Source: a virus. From it: a stretch of 36,352 nucleotides of DNA. The stretch covers positions 1-36,352 of the IMG/VR virus record IMGVR_UViG_3300037587_000020; one strand, 5' to 3'. This document shows positions 7,525 to 28,521 of this stretch, in pieces. A model generated the notes under the pieces. It saw only the letters and a list, made by a program, of their open reading frames with translations. It was not told where the DNA came from and searched no databases. How positions within the stretch are numbered: the stretch's first letter is position 1; the number at the start of each line of letters is the position of its first letter. The position numbers were made by a program, and so were the translations under genes.

Positions 7525-7667
7525 ATGCAACTCACGACTAATACCCGTGCGTTCGTCGAAGCAGAACAGTATAGTAGGTTTATCCTACTTAACTTGCAAG
7601 ACGGACTGTTGCCAGACAGCTTTTATCGGAACATCTCCGATTTCGGCTCTGGTGATACCCTGCACAT
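7525..7667 (+). CDS. Major capsid protein, exon 1
   Basis: The start is ATG 7525 with AAGGA upstream. Exon 1 encodes 47 codons plus two bases, ending ...SDFGSGDTLH + AT. Unspliced reading runs into a TAA at 7678. Joining base 7667 to 8579 restores GDTLHIKTVGEV, which fits the G-x-L-x-I-x-T-x-G pattern near the N-terminus of podophage capsid proteins. The last exon base is T, as group I splicing requires. Spliced, the protein is 313 residues, close to the usual size of T7-type capsids. The exact junction is inferred; a join after 7670 would insert one Val and also keep frame. Confidence 0.85.
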
Positions 7668-8578
7668 TGTAATGGTGTAAAATTGCTCTAAATAACGTGG
7701 AGGTGAAAGCCAACACGAAGGAAGGTTTGGCTCCAAGGGAGGCTATTATGAAATTTTCAGAAACAGAAATAAAGTACCTAGCAGGTTTAATAGATGCAGA
7801 TGGATCATTATCGTTCCATTTCAGACATTATAAAGATGATAGGTATAACGTAAGTTTAAAGTTTGTTTTGCAACAATCATTAAGCATCGACCACGAAGGT
7901 AAGTTTATTAACTGGCTTTCAGGTTTTGGTGGGTTTAGTCAGCATATCAATATAGCTGATGATAATCACCCCAATTGGTCTGATGCAAACAGGTGGACAG
8001 TAACTTCTTTACAGGAGTTAAACATGCTCATCCCTAGGTTGTCAAAACACATGGTGATAAAAGCTAAACACTTTGAAGCCATGTTACTTAAACTCAATTC
8101 CATATATGGACGATCTGTTTCATCTATAGAAATGGCGGAACTCAAGGAGTTCGCTAGGGTTTCAAGAAAGAATGTTGGACCACTAAAACCTAAGAAACAC
8201 CCTACATGGGCTTGGGTAGCGGGTTATCTTGACGGCGATGGTTGCTATTATATGCGTACCAGAAAGAAAGGTAACAGTGTCTGGAAAGAACTAATCGTTA
8301 GGGTTGTTGCACACGATGATGATATAGTATCATTAGAGCTGCTGCACAAAGCCTTCAACGGAAGGATACATAAAGCAAACTATGAGAATACTCACAACTG
8401 GACAAGAAGTCTAGGTGTTCGTGACTCAAGCTTTGCGATTTACTTTCTGCGTAAAATGGTTAGACATTCTAAACTAAAGAAACACAAGATAGAGAAAATG
8501 CTTCATTACCACCTGCAACGACTAAGCGAGCAAACTCCTGCGGGAGAAGCTATAGTCTAATACATTTGTTTGTAATTG
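7668..8578 (+). mobile_element. Group I intron in capsid gene, with homing endonuclease
   Basis: A 911-base insert splitting the capsid gene in phase 2. It is preceded by U and ends in G, as group I introns do. Visible pairings are: P1 ACAT 7664-7667 with GTGT 7675-7678, ending in a U.G pair (weak, four pairs); P3 TTGCTC 7683-7688 with GAGCAA 8528-8533; P4/P5-like GGA and GCCAA (7699-7713) with TTGGC and TCC (7727-7734); P7 GACTA 8520-8524 with TAGTC 8553-8557; a P8 hairpin at 8535-8546; and P9 TACA 8561-8564 with TGTA 8571-8574. The endonuclease frame fills the P6 loop and continues through the 3' core. I see it as a self-splicing, mobile intron; splicing itself is inferred. Confidence 0.85.
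7748..8560 (+). CDS. LAGLIDADG homing endonuclease (capsid intron)
   Basis: A 270-residue intron-encoded protein. I chose ATG 7748 because AAGGGAGG lies 5 bases upstream; the GTG at 7697 would translate ribozyme core sequence. There are two LAGLIDADG motifs: LAGLIDADG itself at residues 11-19 and VAGYLDGDG at 157-165, so it should act as a monomer with two catalytic Asp residues (D18 and D164). Such enzymes cut intronless alleles at the insertion site and spread the intron. The last 14 codons also encode ribozyme strands (P7, P3', P8), so protein and RNA constrain each other. Maturase activity is possible but cannot be seen from sequence. Confidence 0.92.
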   Translation: MKFSETEIKYLAGLIDADGSLSFHFRHYKDDRYNVSLKFVLQQSLSIDHEGKFINWLSGFGGFSQHINIADDNHPNWSDANRWTVTSLQELNMLIPRLSKHMVIKAKHFEAMLLKLNSIYGRSVSSIEMAELKEFARVSRKNVGPLKPKKHPTWAWVAGYLDGDGCYYMRTRKKGNSVWKELIVRVVAHDDDIVSLELLHKAFNGRIHKANYENTHNWTRSLGVRDSSFAIYFLRKMVRHSKLKKHKIEKMLHYHLQRLSEQTPAGEAIV

Positions 8579-9377
8579 CAAAACCGTCGGTGAGGTAACT
8601 CTTCAGGAAGCATCTGAAGATACCGATCTGGTCTACAACCCAATCGAAACTGGTGAGATCACCTTCACGATTAACGAGTACAAAGGCGACGCTTGGTATG
8701 TCACCGATGATCTCCGTGAAGATGGTACTGACATTGACATGCTTATGGCCGAACGTAGCTCTGCTTCGACTCGTGCCTTCCAAGAAGTCTTTGAAACCGA
8801 TTTCCTAGCAACTGCTGCTTTGGCTTTCCCAAACTCAGACCCTTACAATATTAACTCTTTCGCCCACAAAATTGTGTCCGCTGAGACTAATGATGAATTT
8901 GCTCTCTCTCATTTGGTGAGCATGGGTTTGGCTTTTAATAAAGCTAACGTCCCTTCCGAGGGTCGTATCTTCATCGCAGACCCAATTGTAGAAGCAACGC
9001 TTAATCTCTTGGTTAACGTCTCAACTGATGTTACACCATTTGCGGCTGCTATTCTTGAACGTGGTTTGGCCTCTGGTCAACGCTTCTTGATGAACTTCTA
9101 TGGCTGGGACATCATCCTGTCGAATCGACTCTATGTCGCTACAGGTAATGACGGGACTAACTCCATCGCTGATGGTGTATGGAACCTGTTCATGTGTGTC
9201 CTCGATGACCAGACTAAGCCCCTTATGGGAGCAGTTCGTCGGCCACCTAAAGCAGAGGGTGAACGTAACAAAGATAAAGCTCGTGATGAGTTCGTTGTTC
9301 GTTCCCGCTATGACTTCGGTGTCCAGCGTATGGATACACTCGGTGTCCTAGTCACTCACGCAACTAACATCACATAA
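8579..9377 (+). CDS. Major capsid protein, exon 2
   Basis: Exon 2 begins with C 8579, which completes an Ile codon (AT+C), then KTVGEVTLQEASEDTD. It encodes 266 residues including the segments TFTINEYKGDAWYVTDDLREDG and IFIADPIVEATLNLL, and the terminal FGVQRMDTLGVLVTHATNIT, all typical of T7/SIO1-type HK97-fold capsids. No in-frame start with a good ribosome site lies near its beginning, and the exon needs the 5' part for a functional N-arm. The gene lies between scaffold and a probable decoration protein and should be the most abundant virion component. Confidence 0.9.
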
Positions 9378-23215: not shown

Positions 23216-23783
23216 TATACATCTCCTCCATGTCTACAAACTCTTTCTTAGCAGAGAGATTAAAGAAGTTCTGCTTGACCGATACAGACATGTCCATGAA
23301 GTCTGGTGTCGTGGGCCACTTATCTTTACCCAGCTGACTACTCCACATACTCCTGCGTTCCATATCTAATGACAGGAGGTCACAAACTTTAACGCAGTCA
23401 TGCATTTCCTGAGTGATAGGAATGTCCTTGTACCAGAACTTGCTCTCTACCGCCTCATCAATTGGTTGTGACCAGTCCTTAAACCCTTGACCAAGAGCTT
23501 TCTTAACTGGGGTTGCAATGTCCCCGTAGTAAGCCTCTGGCCAGTCATGGATTAGTACAGCCAGTTGGATGTCCCAATTACCATGAAAGATTTTCTCTGC
23601 AATACGAAGACAAAGGTCAGTGTGTTGGGCCACAGTTAGTGGCTTCTCATCTTTCCAATGTCCGTTAAACCTTGTGGTTTGGTTAAGGGAAGTGTTGATG
23701 TCCTTAATATCTACGTCATCAATAGACAAGTTATTAAGGTCAACGTACTTACCACTTGATAGTCGTTTCCATGCTTCACTCAT
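23187..23783 (-). CDS. HD-domain phosphohydrolase (YfbR-like nucleotidase)
   Basis: A 198-residue enzyme. The HD metal site is visible: His54 in TVAQHT, His79-Asp80 in VLIHDWPEA, Glu83, and Asp135 in VKVCDLLSLD. YYGDIATPVKK following the HD is typical of YfbR-type 5'-deoxynucleotidases and related phage enzymes. Its start overlaps the RNR stop by 4 bases (ATGA), so the two are probably coupled. A role in trimming deoxynucleotide pools or salvaging nucleotides for DNA synthesis fits. Substrate is inferred. Confidence 0.8.
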   Translation of the reverse strand: MSEAWKRLSSGKYVDLNNLSIDDVDIKDINTSLNQTTRFNGHWKDEKPLTVAQHTDLCLRIAEKIFHGNWDIQLAVLIHDWPEAYYGDIATPVKKALGQGFKDWSQPIDEAVESKFWYKDIPITQEMHDCVKVCDLLSLDMERRSMWSSQLGKDKWPTTPDFMDMSVSVKQNFFNLSAKKEFVDMEEMYNDLVEKLRS

Positions 23784-24805
23784 TCCGAGCAGCTCCTTTC
23801 TCCATATTCATTAATAAAGCAAGCTCCCCCTTCACTGCTAACTTCGTCATTGAAGATACGAAGCTCTGGGAGATCCTCTTCTGTAGTAAGTTGACGATCT
23901 GTTTCTGGTTCAATCTTGGTAAGGATTGCTCCTTCGAAAGCGGACGGTCTAAATGTTGTACAACCACTTGCACCTCCATCGTATGCCATCATATATAGGT
24001 CTTTAAATTCATCAAATGTTACATGCTCCCCTACGTTACACGTCTTAGAACATGCAGAGTCCACCAACTCAGAAGCTAGGCACAACACCTTGATATGGTC
24101 TTGAGCACTAATCTCCTCAGAGGTACGTCCTCTAACACCATACTCACTATGCGCATAGTCTTCTACGTAATACTCCTTGAAGCTACCACCGTCCTGTCTA
24201 ATCTTACGATTGTAGGCGAGAGCAAATGGAGGTTCAATACCTGAGCTGATGTTACCAGCCCATAGGCTGATCGTACCTGTAGGAGCAATGGATAGTAGGT
24301 GTGAGTTACGAATACCATAACGCTCAATCAGGTCTTGTATCTCTTCTGGTAGGGTTTGAATGAACTCCCCTGATAGATACTCTCCAGCGTTGAATGCAGG
24401 GAATGGACCTTTCTCCATAGCTAGGTTGATCGAATGTAGGTACACACTATCCCGTAGGAGTGTCATAACCTTACGCATCCACAGTAGCATCTCATCTGAA
24501 CCGTAAGGGAGGCCAAGGATTTCAGCTGCGTTAGCCACACCTGTAACACCAAGTCCCATACGTCTCTTACTCTTAGCCTCAGCTTCCTGTTCTTCTAGGG
24601 GATAGACAGTACGATCAATAACATTGTCCATCATTCGTACGATAGGTCCGATGTCATGCTGGAATAGATTATAATCAAACTGGTATGACTGGCTAATGTT
24701 AGGAGCCCTCATAACATCTTCTGTGTAATCTTCCTCTAGCGAGATATACTTAGTAAGATTAAAGCTGCCTAACAGACAAGCCCCATGAGGAGGCAACGGT
24801 TGTTC
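23780..24805 (-). CDS. nrdJ: Class II ribonucleotide reductase, exon 2
   Basis: Exon 2 begins with GAA (Glu258 of the joined protein) and encodes 341 residues: EQPLPPHGACLLGSFNLT, then KRRMGLGVTGVANAAEILGL, then SIAPTGTISLWAGNISSGIE, then the second redox Cys in SACSKTCN and SGCTTFRP, ending GGACFINEYGERSCSE with two C-terminal Cys. An ATG at 24808 just before GAA is in the intron end and would give a protein without the catalytic Cys. Joined to exon 1 the enzyme is 598 residues, the short viral class II form. It makes deoxynucleotides using adenosylcobalamin, without oxygen or a second subunit. Confidence 0.92.
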   Translation of the reverse strand, partial: EQPLPPHGACLLGSFNLTKYISLEEDYTEDVMRAPNISQSYQFDYNLFQHDIGPIVRMMDNVIDRTVYPLEEQEAEAKSKRRMGLGVTGVANAAEILGLPYGSDEMLLWMRKVMTLLRDSVYLHSINLAMEKGPFPAFNAGEYLSGEFIQTLPEEIQDLIERYGIRNSHLLSIAPTGTISLWAGNISSGIEPPFALAYNRKIRQDGGSFKEYYVEDYAHSEYGVRGRTSEEISAQDHIKVLCLASELVDSACSKTCNVGEHVTFDEFKDLYMMAYDGGASGCTTFRPSAFEGAILTKIEPETDRQLTTEEDLPELRIFNDEVSSEGGACFINEYGERSCSE

Positions 24806-25637
24806 CATTATGTTTGCCCACTTTTCAATGGGTGTCGGACTATATCTTCAATACACGTATACTCAACGATGTATTGTTCCGCGTTCGGTAAAATCATATC
24901 GACGTATCCTTTTCCTCTATAGAATAGAATTACTTTATATTTAAAACAATCAAGAATGAATGGGTAAATAACAGAGATGAGTTTTTGTAGGTTTAAACCA
25001 CCTACCCTAATCCTGTATCCATAACCCCAACGAACCTTAACAAGGGAACTCTCGATACCCCACTTAATTAGTAAGTGCTCTTGTAGTATTTGAAGTTCCT
25101 CTCTCGGAAAAGCCTCTAAACAAAACCAGCCTATATTCTGAACCTTATTTTTCTTATGGTTCTTAGAGTGAGCCGTATAACCATCACACATATAGATATG
25201 TGCCAACGCTTCTTCGTCTATACGGGAAACATTATATCTGGTTAAGTGTTTACGGACGCCGTACACATGGTCCCTCATGTTTGAGAAGTACGAGTGTTGT
25301 TTAGTTGTTGCCCTATAACCAATGTAACCACGTTTATCGTGTTTAACTGTTAGCCTAGCTCCACTGCCAGTAATCTGTTGCAGAACCTCAGCTATATAGG
25401 AGGCGTATTCTTCGTGCTTAGAGTAGAAGTCTAATCTACCCCGCTCTGTTATGTGAGCATCAGATAGTGAGATGCCATAAACAATTTTCTTGATTCTTTT
25501 TGCTGTCAACAATTCCATTGGAGTTGTTCCTTTCGATCTTCCTGTAGTCTCTGAACCTTCCTATTTCTAGGCTTGGCTGCTGATTGCCCCTAAGGGTTCC
25601 CAGCAATTAACGGAATTTTAATGCGGCAAACTTACCT
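24806..25637 (-). mobile_element. Group I intron in RNR gene, with homing endonuclease
   Basis: An 832-base insert in phase 0, preceded by U (25638) and ending in G (24806). P1 is strong: exon ATGCGGT (25644-25638) pairs over seven bases with the guide GCCGCAT (25627-25621), with U.G at the splice site. The core is canonical: P4 TGCTG (25605-25601) with CAGCA (25582-25578); a CCTA-GAAA-TAGG hairpin (25571-25560); the R element GTTCAGAGACTACA; P7 GACTA (25549-25545) with TAGTC (24842-24838) in the S element AGATATAGTCC; and P9 CCCA/TGGG after it. This resembles T4 td/nrdB-type (IA2) introns. The endonuclease lies in the P8 loop. Splicing is inferred but strongly supported. Confidence 0.93.
24808..25518 (-). 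CDS. LAGLIDADG-type homing endonuclease (RNR intron)
   Basis: A 236-residue protein with AAAGGA upstream of ATG 25518. Two degenerate LAGLIDADG-like motifs are visible: VYGISLSDAHI (residues 13-23, Asp20) and LAHIYMCDG (105-113, Asp112). This is the LAGLIDADG_2 style, unlike the classical motif of the capsid-intron enzyme. The body is basic with beta segments (RWGYGYRIRVGGLNLQKLIS). The last codons (IEDIVRHPLKSGQT) also encode the ribozyme S element and P9, and the TAA overlaps the final intron bases. It should cut intronless RNR genes at the insertion site. Confidence 0.82.
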   Translation of the reverse strand: MELLTAKRIKKIVYGISLSDAHITERGRLDFYSKHEEYASYIAEVLQQITGSGARLTVKHDKRGYIGYRATTKQHSYFSNMRDHVYGVRKHLTRYNVSRIDEEALAHIYMCDGYTAHSKNHKKNKVQNIGWFCLEAFPREELQILQEHLLIKWGIESSLVKVRWGYGYRIRVGGLNLQKLISVIYPFILDCFKYKVILFYRGKGYVDMILPNAEQYIVEYTCIEDIVRHPLKSGQT

Positions 25638-26408
25638 ACCGCATGGATTTGTGGTTGCTATTTCTTCTGCGTACCAGAGGTTGTTCTTATTGTTGATCTT
25701 ATCAATAAACAACACACCGGGTTCGGCATGATCCCATGTGTTACGCATGATCTTATTCCATAGCATACGAGCACTAACTGTCTTATGAACCCTGCCCTCA
25801 AAGACAAGATCGAAGTCTTCATCATTCTTGACAGCCCACATGAACAGGTCCGTAACTGTAACACTAATATTAAAGTTGGTTAGCTTACCATTCTGTTGCT
25901 TACATGTGATGAACTCTTCAATGTCAGGGTGATCCACCCTCAACACGCCCATCATAGCACCTCTACGATGCCCTGCTGACTTAATAGTCTCACACATAGA
26001 GTCCCACACTCCCATGAAGGAGATAGGGCCAGAGGAGGTAGAGCCCAAGGAACGAATAAGGTCTCCTTTAGGTCGTAGTGTTGAGAAGTCAAAACCATCC
26101 CCTCCACCAAGACGCATAGTTTCTGCTGCATCTGTTAGGGCTTGCATAATACCTGCCATTGAGTCAAGTATCGTACCGCTGGCGTAACAGTTAAATGCTG
26201 TTGTACGTCGTGCTGCCCCCGCAGAGGCTTGGATACGACCAGCTGGTAAGAATCTCTGAGCCTCTAAGATTTCGTGTGTTTGTCTAAAGTGTTCCTCATC
26301 GTCCTTGAGGTGGTCAGCCACACGTGCTGTTCCCTCATGGAAGCTCTCCCCTTCTTGTAGGTACTTAGGAGCGCATTCAAGCTCCATAACTTCTTGGATT
26401 TGGTTCAT
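25638..26408 (-). CDS. nrdJ: Class II ribonucleotide reductase, exon 1
   Basis: Exon 1 is 257 codons from ATG 26408, in an ATGA overlap with the upstream small gene. It contains [14 protein letters not shown], the first redox Cys74 in [11 protein letters not shown], and [20 protein letters not shown], and ends TTNPCG. Cys256 is the thiyl-radical cysteine of the N-x-C-x-E motif; the Glu is supplied by exon 2. Unspliced reading continues one codon (AGG) to a TAA. The enzyme class (adenosylcobalamin-dependent, NrdJ) is judged from these motifs and from the absence of an nrdB-like or activase gene nearby. Confidence 0.93.
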
Positions 26409-27804: not shown

Positions 27805-28097
27805 ACAGCCACCTCTTCTGGCACAGCAACTTGAGTTGTGTAGGCACTATTATTACCTTCGTCCTTAAACTCAATACCTGCTGTCACTTCTTTCCGAACT
27901 TTGTCAGGCCCATGCTTCTTTATATAAGCACTCATCACTTGCATTTCAAGTTGTTCGAGGGTAGAAAATTCACCTAAATAGTTTTTAAGCTGTGAAGGAC
28001 CGAAGTCATCCAACATGTTAAACGCCATAACTACACGATTAAATACACGTAGACGCTTAGGTTCCACTTCATTAAATTTATTAAAGCTATCAGCCAT
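27801..28097 (-). CDS. Hypothetical protein
   Basis: A 98-residue helical protein (RLRVFNRVVMAFNMLDDFGP; STLEQLEMQVMSAYIKKHG) with an acidic C-terminal tail ending PEEVAV. No membrane segment. It overlaps the HNH gene by 8 bases upstream and the DUF3310 gene by ATGA downstream. Family not recognised; placement suggests a nucleotide or DNA-metabolism accessory. Confidence 0.65.
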   Translation of the reverse strand: MADSFNKFNEVEPKRLRVFNRVVMAFNMLDDFGPSQLKNYLGEFSTLEQLEMQVMSAYIKKHGPDKVRKEVTAGIEFKDEGNNSAYTTQVAVPEEVAV

Positions 28098-28521
28098 TCT
28101 CTTCTTCCTTTCGTTTCCGACGGTATTCCGCCGAGATTTTTCTTTCTTCTACTGACTTTATTGAGTGACAATCTCCACAAAGTAGTTGTAAATTCGAGGT
28201 TTCACAAAACATGCGGTCAATACATTCGTCCCAAGTAGTAAACCCAGTCTCTAATGGGATCACAGGCTCAATATGATCTACAAATATGTTGTTCACACGC
28301 TTCCTCCGCCCCTTAACTAACGCTAGGACAGTGGTAGGTACGTGTTGTTTACACTCAGCGCAAAGGTATACCCCACGAGATATGTTAGCCTCCTTCTTCA
28401 CTTCATTAATTGGAGCCCATTTACGACTTGCACTTCGTAGCTGATTCTTGATGAAGGACCGGAAGCGAGCCTCGGTCCATGCTCCAGAACATCTTGTTTT
28501 AGGCCCACTAGGTCTAGCCAT
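28090..28521 (-). CDS. HNH endonuclease
   Basis: A 143-residue protein with a zinc-stabilised HNH site: Cys54-x2-Cys57 in LCAEC, Asp82-His83 in VDHI, Asn110 in TSNLQLL, and Cys115-x2-Cys118-His119 in CGDCHSIKS. The N-terminus is basic (KNQLRSASRKWAP). It directly abuts the 25-aa gene upstream (TAA then ATG). It could be a replication/recombination nuclease of the phage, a packaging-associated nuclease, or a free-standing homing enzyme; its place in the operon core and conservation with neighbours favour a phage function. Confidence 0.85.
   Translation of the reverse strand: MARPSGPKTRCSGAWTEARFRSFIKNQLRSASRKWAPINEVKKEANISRGVYLCAECKQHVPTTVLALVKGRRKRVNNIFVDHIEPVIPLETGFTTWDECIDRMFCETSNLQLLCGDCHSIKSVEERKISAEYRRKRKEEENG

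Follow-up and report, generated by a model that had tools for sequence, protein, structure and literature searches.

A predicted mobile group I intron with a LAGLIDADG endonuclease frame in the catalytic motif of a viral nrdJ gene

Introduction

Group I introns near important conserved residues of phage ribonucleotide reductase (RNR) genes are known, and an excerpt of one survey counts split RNR genes in 16 of the 128 phage genomes that carry RNR genes, nrdJ accounting for two of the split genes (PMC3653736). Besides these two split phage genes the excerpt lists two intein-bearing nrdJ genes in ocean data; one of the split genes is that of phiYS40, whose gap of 12 nucleotides (nt) is unlike the 832-nt intron described here (PMC3653736). 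The latter interrupts the nrdJ gene of IMG/VR virus record IMGVR_UViG_3300037587_000020, the 36,352 bases of which were analysed as a whole and are referred to below as the window.

The closest described systems each share part of this arrangement. In phage Twort, two group I introns lie in an RNR large-subunit gene, nrdE, and one of them carries an HNH endonuclease; the survey excerpt places these introns close to key conserved residues (PMC3653736). However, the enzyme is of class Ib, the introns lie elsewhere and leave the NLCCE motif uninterrupted, and the endonuclease is HNH rather than LAGLIDADG as in the window. Phage SPbeta bnrdE, also class Ib, has an annotated intein in the same catalytic motif (NL^CSEV), directly before the cysteine, but this element is removed by protein splicing, and the two intron sites reported below lie 3 and 6 nt downstream of it; bnrdE also has a group I intron, though at another position, which resembles that of the first Twort intron. 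Introns of cyanobacterial nrdE are also mentioned in the part of a review drawn on here (PMC3984707). More generally, introns and inteins are argued, in the section of a further article used here, to prefer conserved sites, where only precise loss is tolerated and the target is not free to change (PMC2814812).

Results

Architecture of the interrupted nrdJ gene

The nrdJ gene spans 26408 to 23780 on the minus strand, as a preliminary description of the sequence had it, and consists of two parts separated by 832 nt. Intron boundaries were set from the reading frame, the U.G rule and intronless relatives, as follows:

25638..26408, minus strand: nrdJ exon 1, M1-G257, ending AAT CCA TGC GGT (NPCG)
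24806..25637, minus strand: group I intron, 832 nt, beginning AGGTAAG and ending ACATAATG, last base G
23780..24805, minus strand: nrdJ exon 2, E258-E598 plus stop, beginning GAA CAA (EQ)

Joined between the last base of exon 1 (25638) and the first of exon 2 (24805), the spliced frame encodes 598 amino acids (aa) and reads ...ATTNPCG^EQPLPP..., with the exon ends TTNPCG and EQPLPP that had been read before. When the two open reading frames (ORFs) were scanned separately, their matches to the Pfam RNR barrel PF02867 abut exactly (exon 1 covering 9-213 and exon 2 covering 214-521), as do those to NCBIfam NrdJ_Z (28-283, then from 284). NrdJ_Z is the best family for both exons (249.4 and 250.1 bits), each score lying below the whole-protein cut-off of 399.95, as expected for halves. 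The best PDB entries are the B12-dependent RNR structures 1xje/1xjk, and exon 1 aligns to 1xje up to NPCG (chain residues 320-323). These matches point to a class II (B12-dependent) RNR.

We take the NPCG cysteine, Cys256, to be the thiyl-radical carrier. When 18 RNRs, 8 of them intron-bearing and 10 intronless, were aligned, TNPCGE and NPCGEQ ranked first and second among 329 six-residue segments scored, so that the intron does fall, as proposed, between Cys256 and Glu258 at the most conserved point of the enzyme. Given the abutting exon profiles, the 1xje alignment reaching NPCG and the top rank of these segments, we judge the preliminary description to have been exact.

Without splicing, the nrdJ frame continues GGT AGG TAA and stops after one intron codon, upstream of Glu258; therefore, the unspliced product would plausibly be inactive. 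An intein was considered and rejected because of this stop one codon into the insert, which is not in frame with both host parts. The coordinates of profile NF006207 (exon 1 to 860, exon 2 from 1244) give no more than a hint of an archaeal intein at the motif.

The ribozyme core

P1, R, S, P5, P6 and P9 were identified within the intron:

25638..25644, minus strand: exon strand of P1, AUGCGGU, the last U pairing with G
25621..25627, minus strand: internal guide sequence GCCGCAU, the intron strand of P1
25545..25556, minus strand: R element GUUCAGAGACUA, 5' strand of P7 with flank, from the RF00028 alignment and conserved in relatives
24838..24849, minus strand: S element GAAGAUAUAGUC, 3' strand of P7 with flank, from the RF00028 alignment and conserved in relatives
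24817..24832, minus strand: P9 hairpin, with covariation in six introns

The full RF00028 model matches the intron with 44.0 bits (E 1.1e-9). Because this falls below the gathering score of 50, a gathering-level scan of the window returns no entry. P1, scored pairwise for each intron considered in this work, here consists of six Watson-Crick pairs and the splice-site U.G, which 4 of 5000 shuffles equalled (first 50 intron bases). Both the seven-pair P1 and the textbook R and S elements of the preliminary description are thus recovered in a group I intron.

Comparison of six homologous introns, introduced below, adds covariation. In P9, five of the six predicted pairs have two-sided changes and the sixth is invariant, with 1 of 36 cells broken. 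In the P4-P6 model, two-sided changes occur in 4 of 16 pairs, all in P5 and P6, while P4 is invariant and, for each of two pairs in P6, a single sequence does not pair. The 5' core also has blastn matches in 30 phage records, Twort and S-PM2 included. The intron therefore has a group I core from P3 to P9 with the guanosine-binding site in P7 (R/S), as indicated by the full-length RF00028 match and the covariation in P5, P6 and P9, along with a P1 that places U.G at the 5' splice site and a terminal intron G. Guanosine-initiated self-splicing is predicted from this anatomy.

A decayed intron that no longer splices and has inactivated nrdJ would fit the sub-threshold Rfam score. However, both exons are open and RNR-like to their ends, the endonuclease frame is intact with its motif residues, and P1 is fully paired, which makes decay very improbable.

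The intron-encoded endonuclease

The intron contains an ORF of which the preliminary description made no mention:

24811..25518, minus strand: LAGLIDADG homing endonuclease ORF, 236 aa, stop TAA at 24808-24810, in the P8 loop

The frame starts in the P8 loop and continues through the 3' strand of P7 and P9. Its product belongs to LAGLIDADG_2 (PF03161, 81.2 bits). An AlphaFold model built from six homologues has a mean predicted local distance difference test (pLDDT) score of 81, with residues 202-236 below 50; the DNA encoding this tail doubles as the 3' core of the ribozyme. Foldseek returned I-WcaI first (6.5e-13) and then I-SceI, which share the LAGLIDADG fold at 18-22% identity; the latter is the yeast mitochondrial rRNA intron enzyme. 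The motif aspartates D20 and D112, to which we ascribe a catalytic role, are invariant in all six endonucleases compared; the family match, the fold and two motif helices with acidic residues all occur together. The enzyme is predicted to cleave the intronless allele near the insertion site.

Five homologues of this endonuclease sit in nrdJ introns and are 35-65% identical to it. Outside these, no relative was found at E 1e-5 in 50,697 phage records, among the 10 stretches of viral contigs returned for the endonuclease alone, or among the 192 and 40 stretches returned by two pattern-based contig scans of cellular genomes. With E values up to 10, eight of the phage records match, the best two (8e-4) being HHBS10_2 and FBPa8. 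In the Pseudomonas phage HHBS10_2, a PF03161 endonuclease 24% identical to that of the window lies between two parts of an RNR gene, nrdB, and the element matches RF00028 with 29.9 bits (below gathering; E 2e-5), the endonuclease frame entering the 3' core. This gene differs in encoding a class I small subunit interrupted at another site, and it is annotated as separate coding sequences with no intron. The break (L275 3560-4800) comes a few codons after ...FFELNVHAP, in which E-L-N-V-H is a metal-ligand motif. FBPa8 (L276; Zobellviridae, Paundecimvirus), compared by gene order alone, has the same gene order as HHBS10_2.

The endonucleases usual in phage introns belong to other families, according to the portion of the review used here (PMC3984707), and so do those usual in introns of RNR small-subunit genes, according to part of another article (PMC8772380). 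There is nevertheless a precedent for a LAGLIDADG enzyme in a phage intron: the window protein matches phrog_11023 (4e-13), and the excerpted report of a Nitunavirus DNA polymerase intron describes an enzyme of the same LAGLIDADG_2 family and PHROG (11023) in a different host gene (PMC11878797).

Eight introns in one motif at two registers

Seven further distinct introns were found in the catalytic motif of divergent phage nrdJ genes, making eight with the window:

L181, L183, L272: NPCG^E, with homologous endonuclease
L182, L270: NPC^GE, exactly one codon upstream, with homologous endonuclease
L251 (4663-4906), L243 (11300-11543): NPCG^E, 244 nt, without endonuclease

Viral contigs were searched with the P1-pair pattern (at least 120 stretches) and a second pattern (49 stretches); tblastn of the RNR over L001-L170 gave one pattern stretch with an RNR, L035, among the matches listed, and an S-element pattern gave 80 stretches, six of them with RNR exons. 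L217, L249 and L035 are the same contigs as L181, L182 and L183, respectively, and L188 carries an intron identical to that of L243.

All eight introns are preceded by U, end in G and have an in-frame stop after 1-7 sense codons, and the six that bear an endonuclease have 5' cores with a mean column identity of 80%. In L182 and L270 the glycine codon is gone from the 5' side, so that the reading frame dictates the shift by one codon. The guide of these two introns, GCAUGG, pairs with CCAUGU, which places the U.G at the third position of a TGT cysteine codon, where the window has TGC. Since the L182 and L270 endonucleases are sisters (91/89), one shift suffices.

The last intron base is the G of an ATG (24808-24806) that overlaps the endonuclease stop as TAATG. 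This ATG invites a different account, with separate translation of the two nrdJ parts, exon 2 starting here, and their assembly without splicing, as is reported for phage Aeh1 nrdA. The in-frame ATG-GAA recurs at the junction of L035/L183, and RNR genes split without a self-splicing intron are on record in the survey excerpt (PMC3653736). Yet L181, L182 and L270 have no junction ATG, and after the same S element many stretches in other genes also read ...GATG (S-element matches, whose boundaries were not set). The break would moreover part Cys256 from Glu258 within one active-site motif, and a complete ribozyme is conserved with covariation. Separate translation therefore has very little probability, and we retain a spliced group I intron.

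By these comparisons, the catalytic-cysteine motif of phage nrdJ is a recurrent intron landing site with two registers one codon apart. Neither this intron lineage nor its shift by one codon turned up in the published literature searched. We somewhat favour a broader proposal, in which the codons of the nrdJ radical motif serve as a general docking site: one LAGLIDADG lineage would have homed across nrdJ genes down to 31% identity, with independent arrivals of an intein and of introns that lack an ORF and seem to be of another type. In this proposal, the single upstream shift would have come about by re-registering the guide onto the U of the TGT cysteine codon.

The opposite possibility, that introns reached the motif several times independently and are not a single lineage spread by homing, gains from the cores of the ORF-less L251 and L243 introns, which differ by eye, and from the four changes of intron label that the RNR tree needs. 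Against it, the six endonuclease-bearing introns share a homologous endonuclease, at 35-65% identity to that of the window, as well as their similar 5' core. As a full account it seems doubtful, but it is probably true in part, with one endonuclease-bearing lineage and one or two other arrivals.

The L251 and L243 introns have an extra ACGAGCGCCCGAC segment, presumably P7.1-like, and their host nrdJ genes are more distant.

Empty sites and mobility

Nine of ten viral loci with related RNRs (54-79% identical) cover the insertion site, and all nine are uninterrupted. Such a comparison had been set beforehand as a check on the intron, and across the join these relatives read NPCGEQ and once NPCAEQ. 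Phage M6 nrdJ is annotated as a single coding sequence, and the nearest intronless relative, L171, is 82% identical over 565 columns. The intron has thus been gained and/or lost among close relatives.

The window RNR forms a clade with those of the intronless L171 and L172 (100/100), one member with the intron and two without. The nearest kin of its endonuclease (65%) is in L181, whose RNR lies outside this clade. Subject to the poor resolution of the RNR tree, this discrepancy is the pattern expected of a mobile intron. Horizontal spread is likely but not proved, since the tree has long branches, few starred branches and only two forced label changes. Protection from loss by a constrained site is the published argument as excerpted (PMC2814812), and here the closest relatives have no intron. 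A homing endonuclease is another reason for a conserved target.

Weighing and proposed mechanism

Taken together, nrdJ is very probably interrupted by a mobile group I intron with a homing endonuclease. What is observed is the anatomy, the boundaries, the empty sites, helix covariation and homologous elements at the same site. Several points weigh against this explanation. Splicing, cleavage and homing are inferred, and an open frame with conserved motifs does not prove endonuclease activity. RF00028 scores are under the curated threshold for the window, L183 (44.3), L182 (43.8) and L272 (46.0 + 29.1, in two pieces), and above it for L181 (53.0), L270 (53.3) and L251 (80.1). L243 has no Rfam match at E 0.01, so that what identifies it as an intron are its R- and S-like motifs together with its boundaries and reading frame. 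Considered by itself, P1 is less distinctive in the seven other introns, being equalled by 57-763 of 5000 shuffles, and in four of them (L181, L183, L251, L243) it contains a U-U mismatch. In the RNR tree, 4 of 15 inner branches are starred; the intron label needs four changes, of which starred branches force two, and 34 of 500 label shuffles equal this.

The U-U mismatch stands opposite the third base of the cysteine codon, with a guide GCCUCA as if matching TGAGGT.

In the proposed mechanism, the RNA would fold and guanosine would attack after the U of GGU, whereupon exon 1 would attack after the terminal G to restore a 598-codon mRNA. Translation of unspliced RNA would end at the early stop with an inactive 258-residue fragment. 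The endonuclease, translated from a separate start within the P8 loop, would cleave across the NPCGEQ codons of intronless nrdJ genes in co-infecting phages, with repair then copying the intron in. These codons would be a good target because they change little and are hence common to widely diverged nrdJ genes.

The element appears to be an intact-looking mobile group I intron; moderately surprising is the recurrence of an intron site at the catalytic cysteine of phage nrdJ, in two registers one codon apart. The comparative set, with its eight distinct introns in a single catalytic motif, two insertion registers and nine intronless sites, permits testing of how a group I intron moves to a neighbouring site, whether a LAGLIDADG enzyme tolerates wobble changes in a peptide that does not vary, and what makes introns and inteins converge on the same codons. 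At such loci, automatic annotation may report two truncated RNR genes plus a stray nuclease.

Other features of the window

A second element apparently interrupts the capsid gene (7525-9377, plus strand): a LAGLIDADG_1 ORF (7697-8560) that ends in S-like GAAGCTATAGTC. An Rfam scan at E 0.5 found no intron at this gene. An N-terminal piece (ATG 7525) precedes the ORF, and the other capsid part is 70.7% identical to Pseudomonas phage heads. In HHBS10_2, an ORF 45% identical to this LAGLIDADG_1 ORF lies beside the same gene.

Bases 1-24000 gave no megablast match to the phage records searched. The capsid part is nearest to those of Pseudomonas phages such as HHBS10_2 and O4, and Vibrio, Siovirus and Lentibacter records also match. 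There are hints that the virus belongs to Zobellviridae, a family stated for FBPa8 only. Upstream of the interrupted RNR gene, at a distance of a few genes, is a small HNH-type endonuclease gene (28093-28521, minus strand; PHROG), and L275 and L276 (by annotation) as well as L181 and L270 (by eye) have a similar gene likewise placed.

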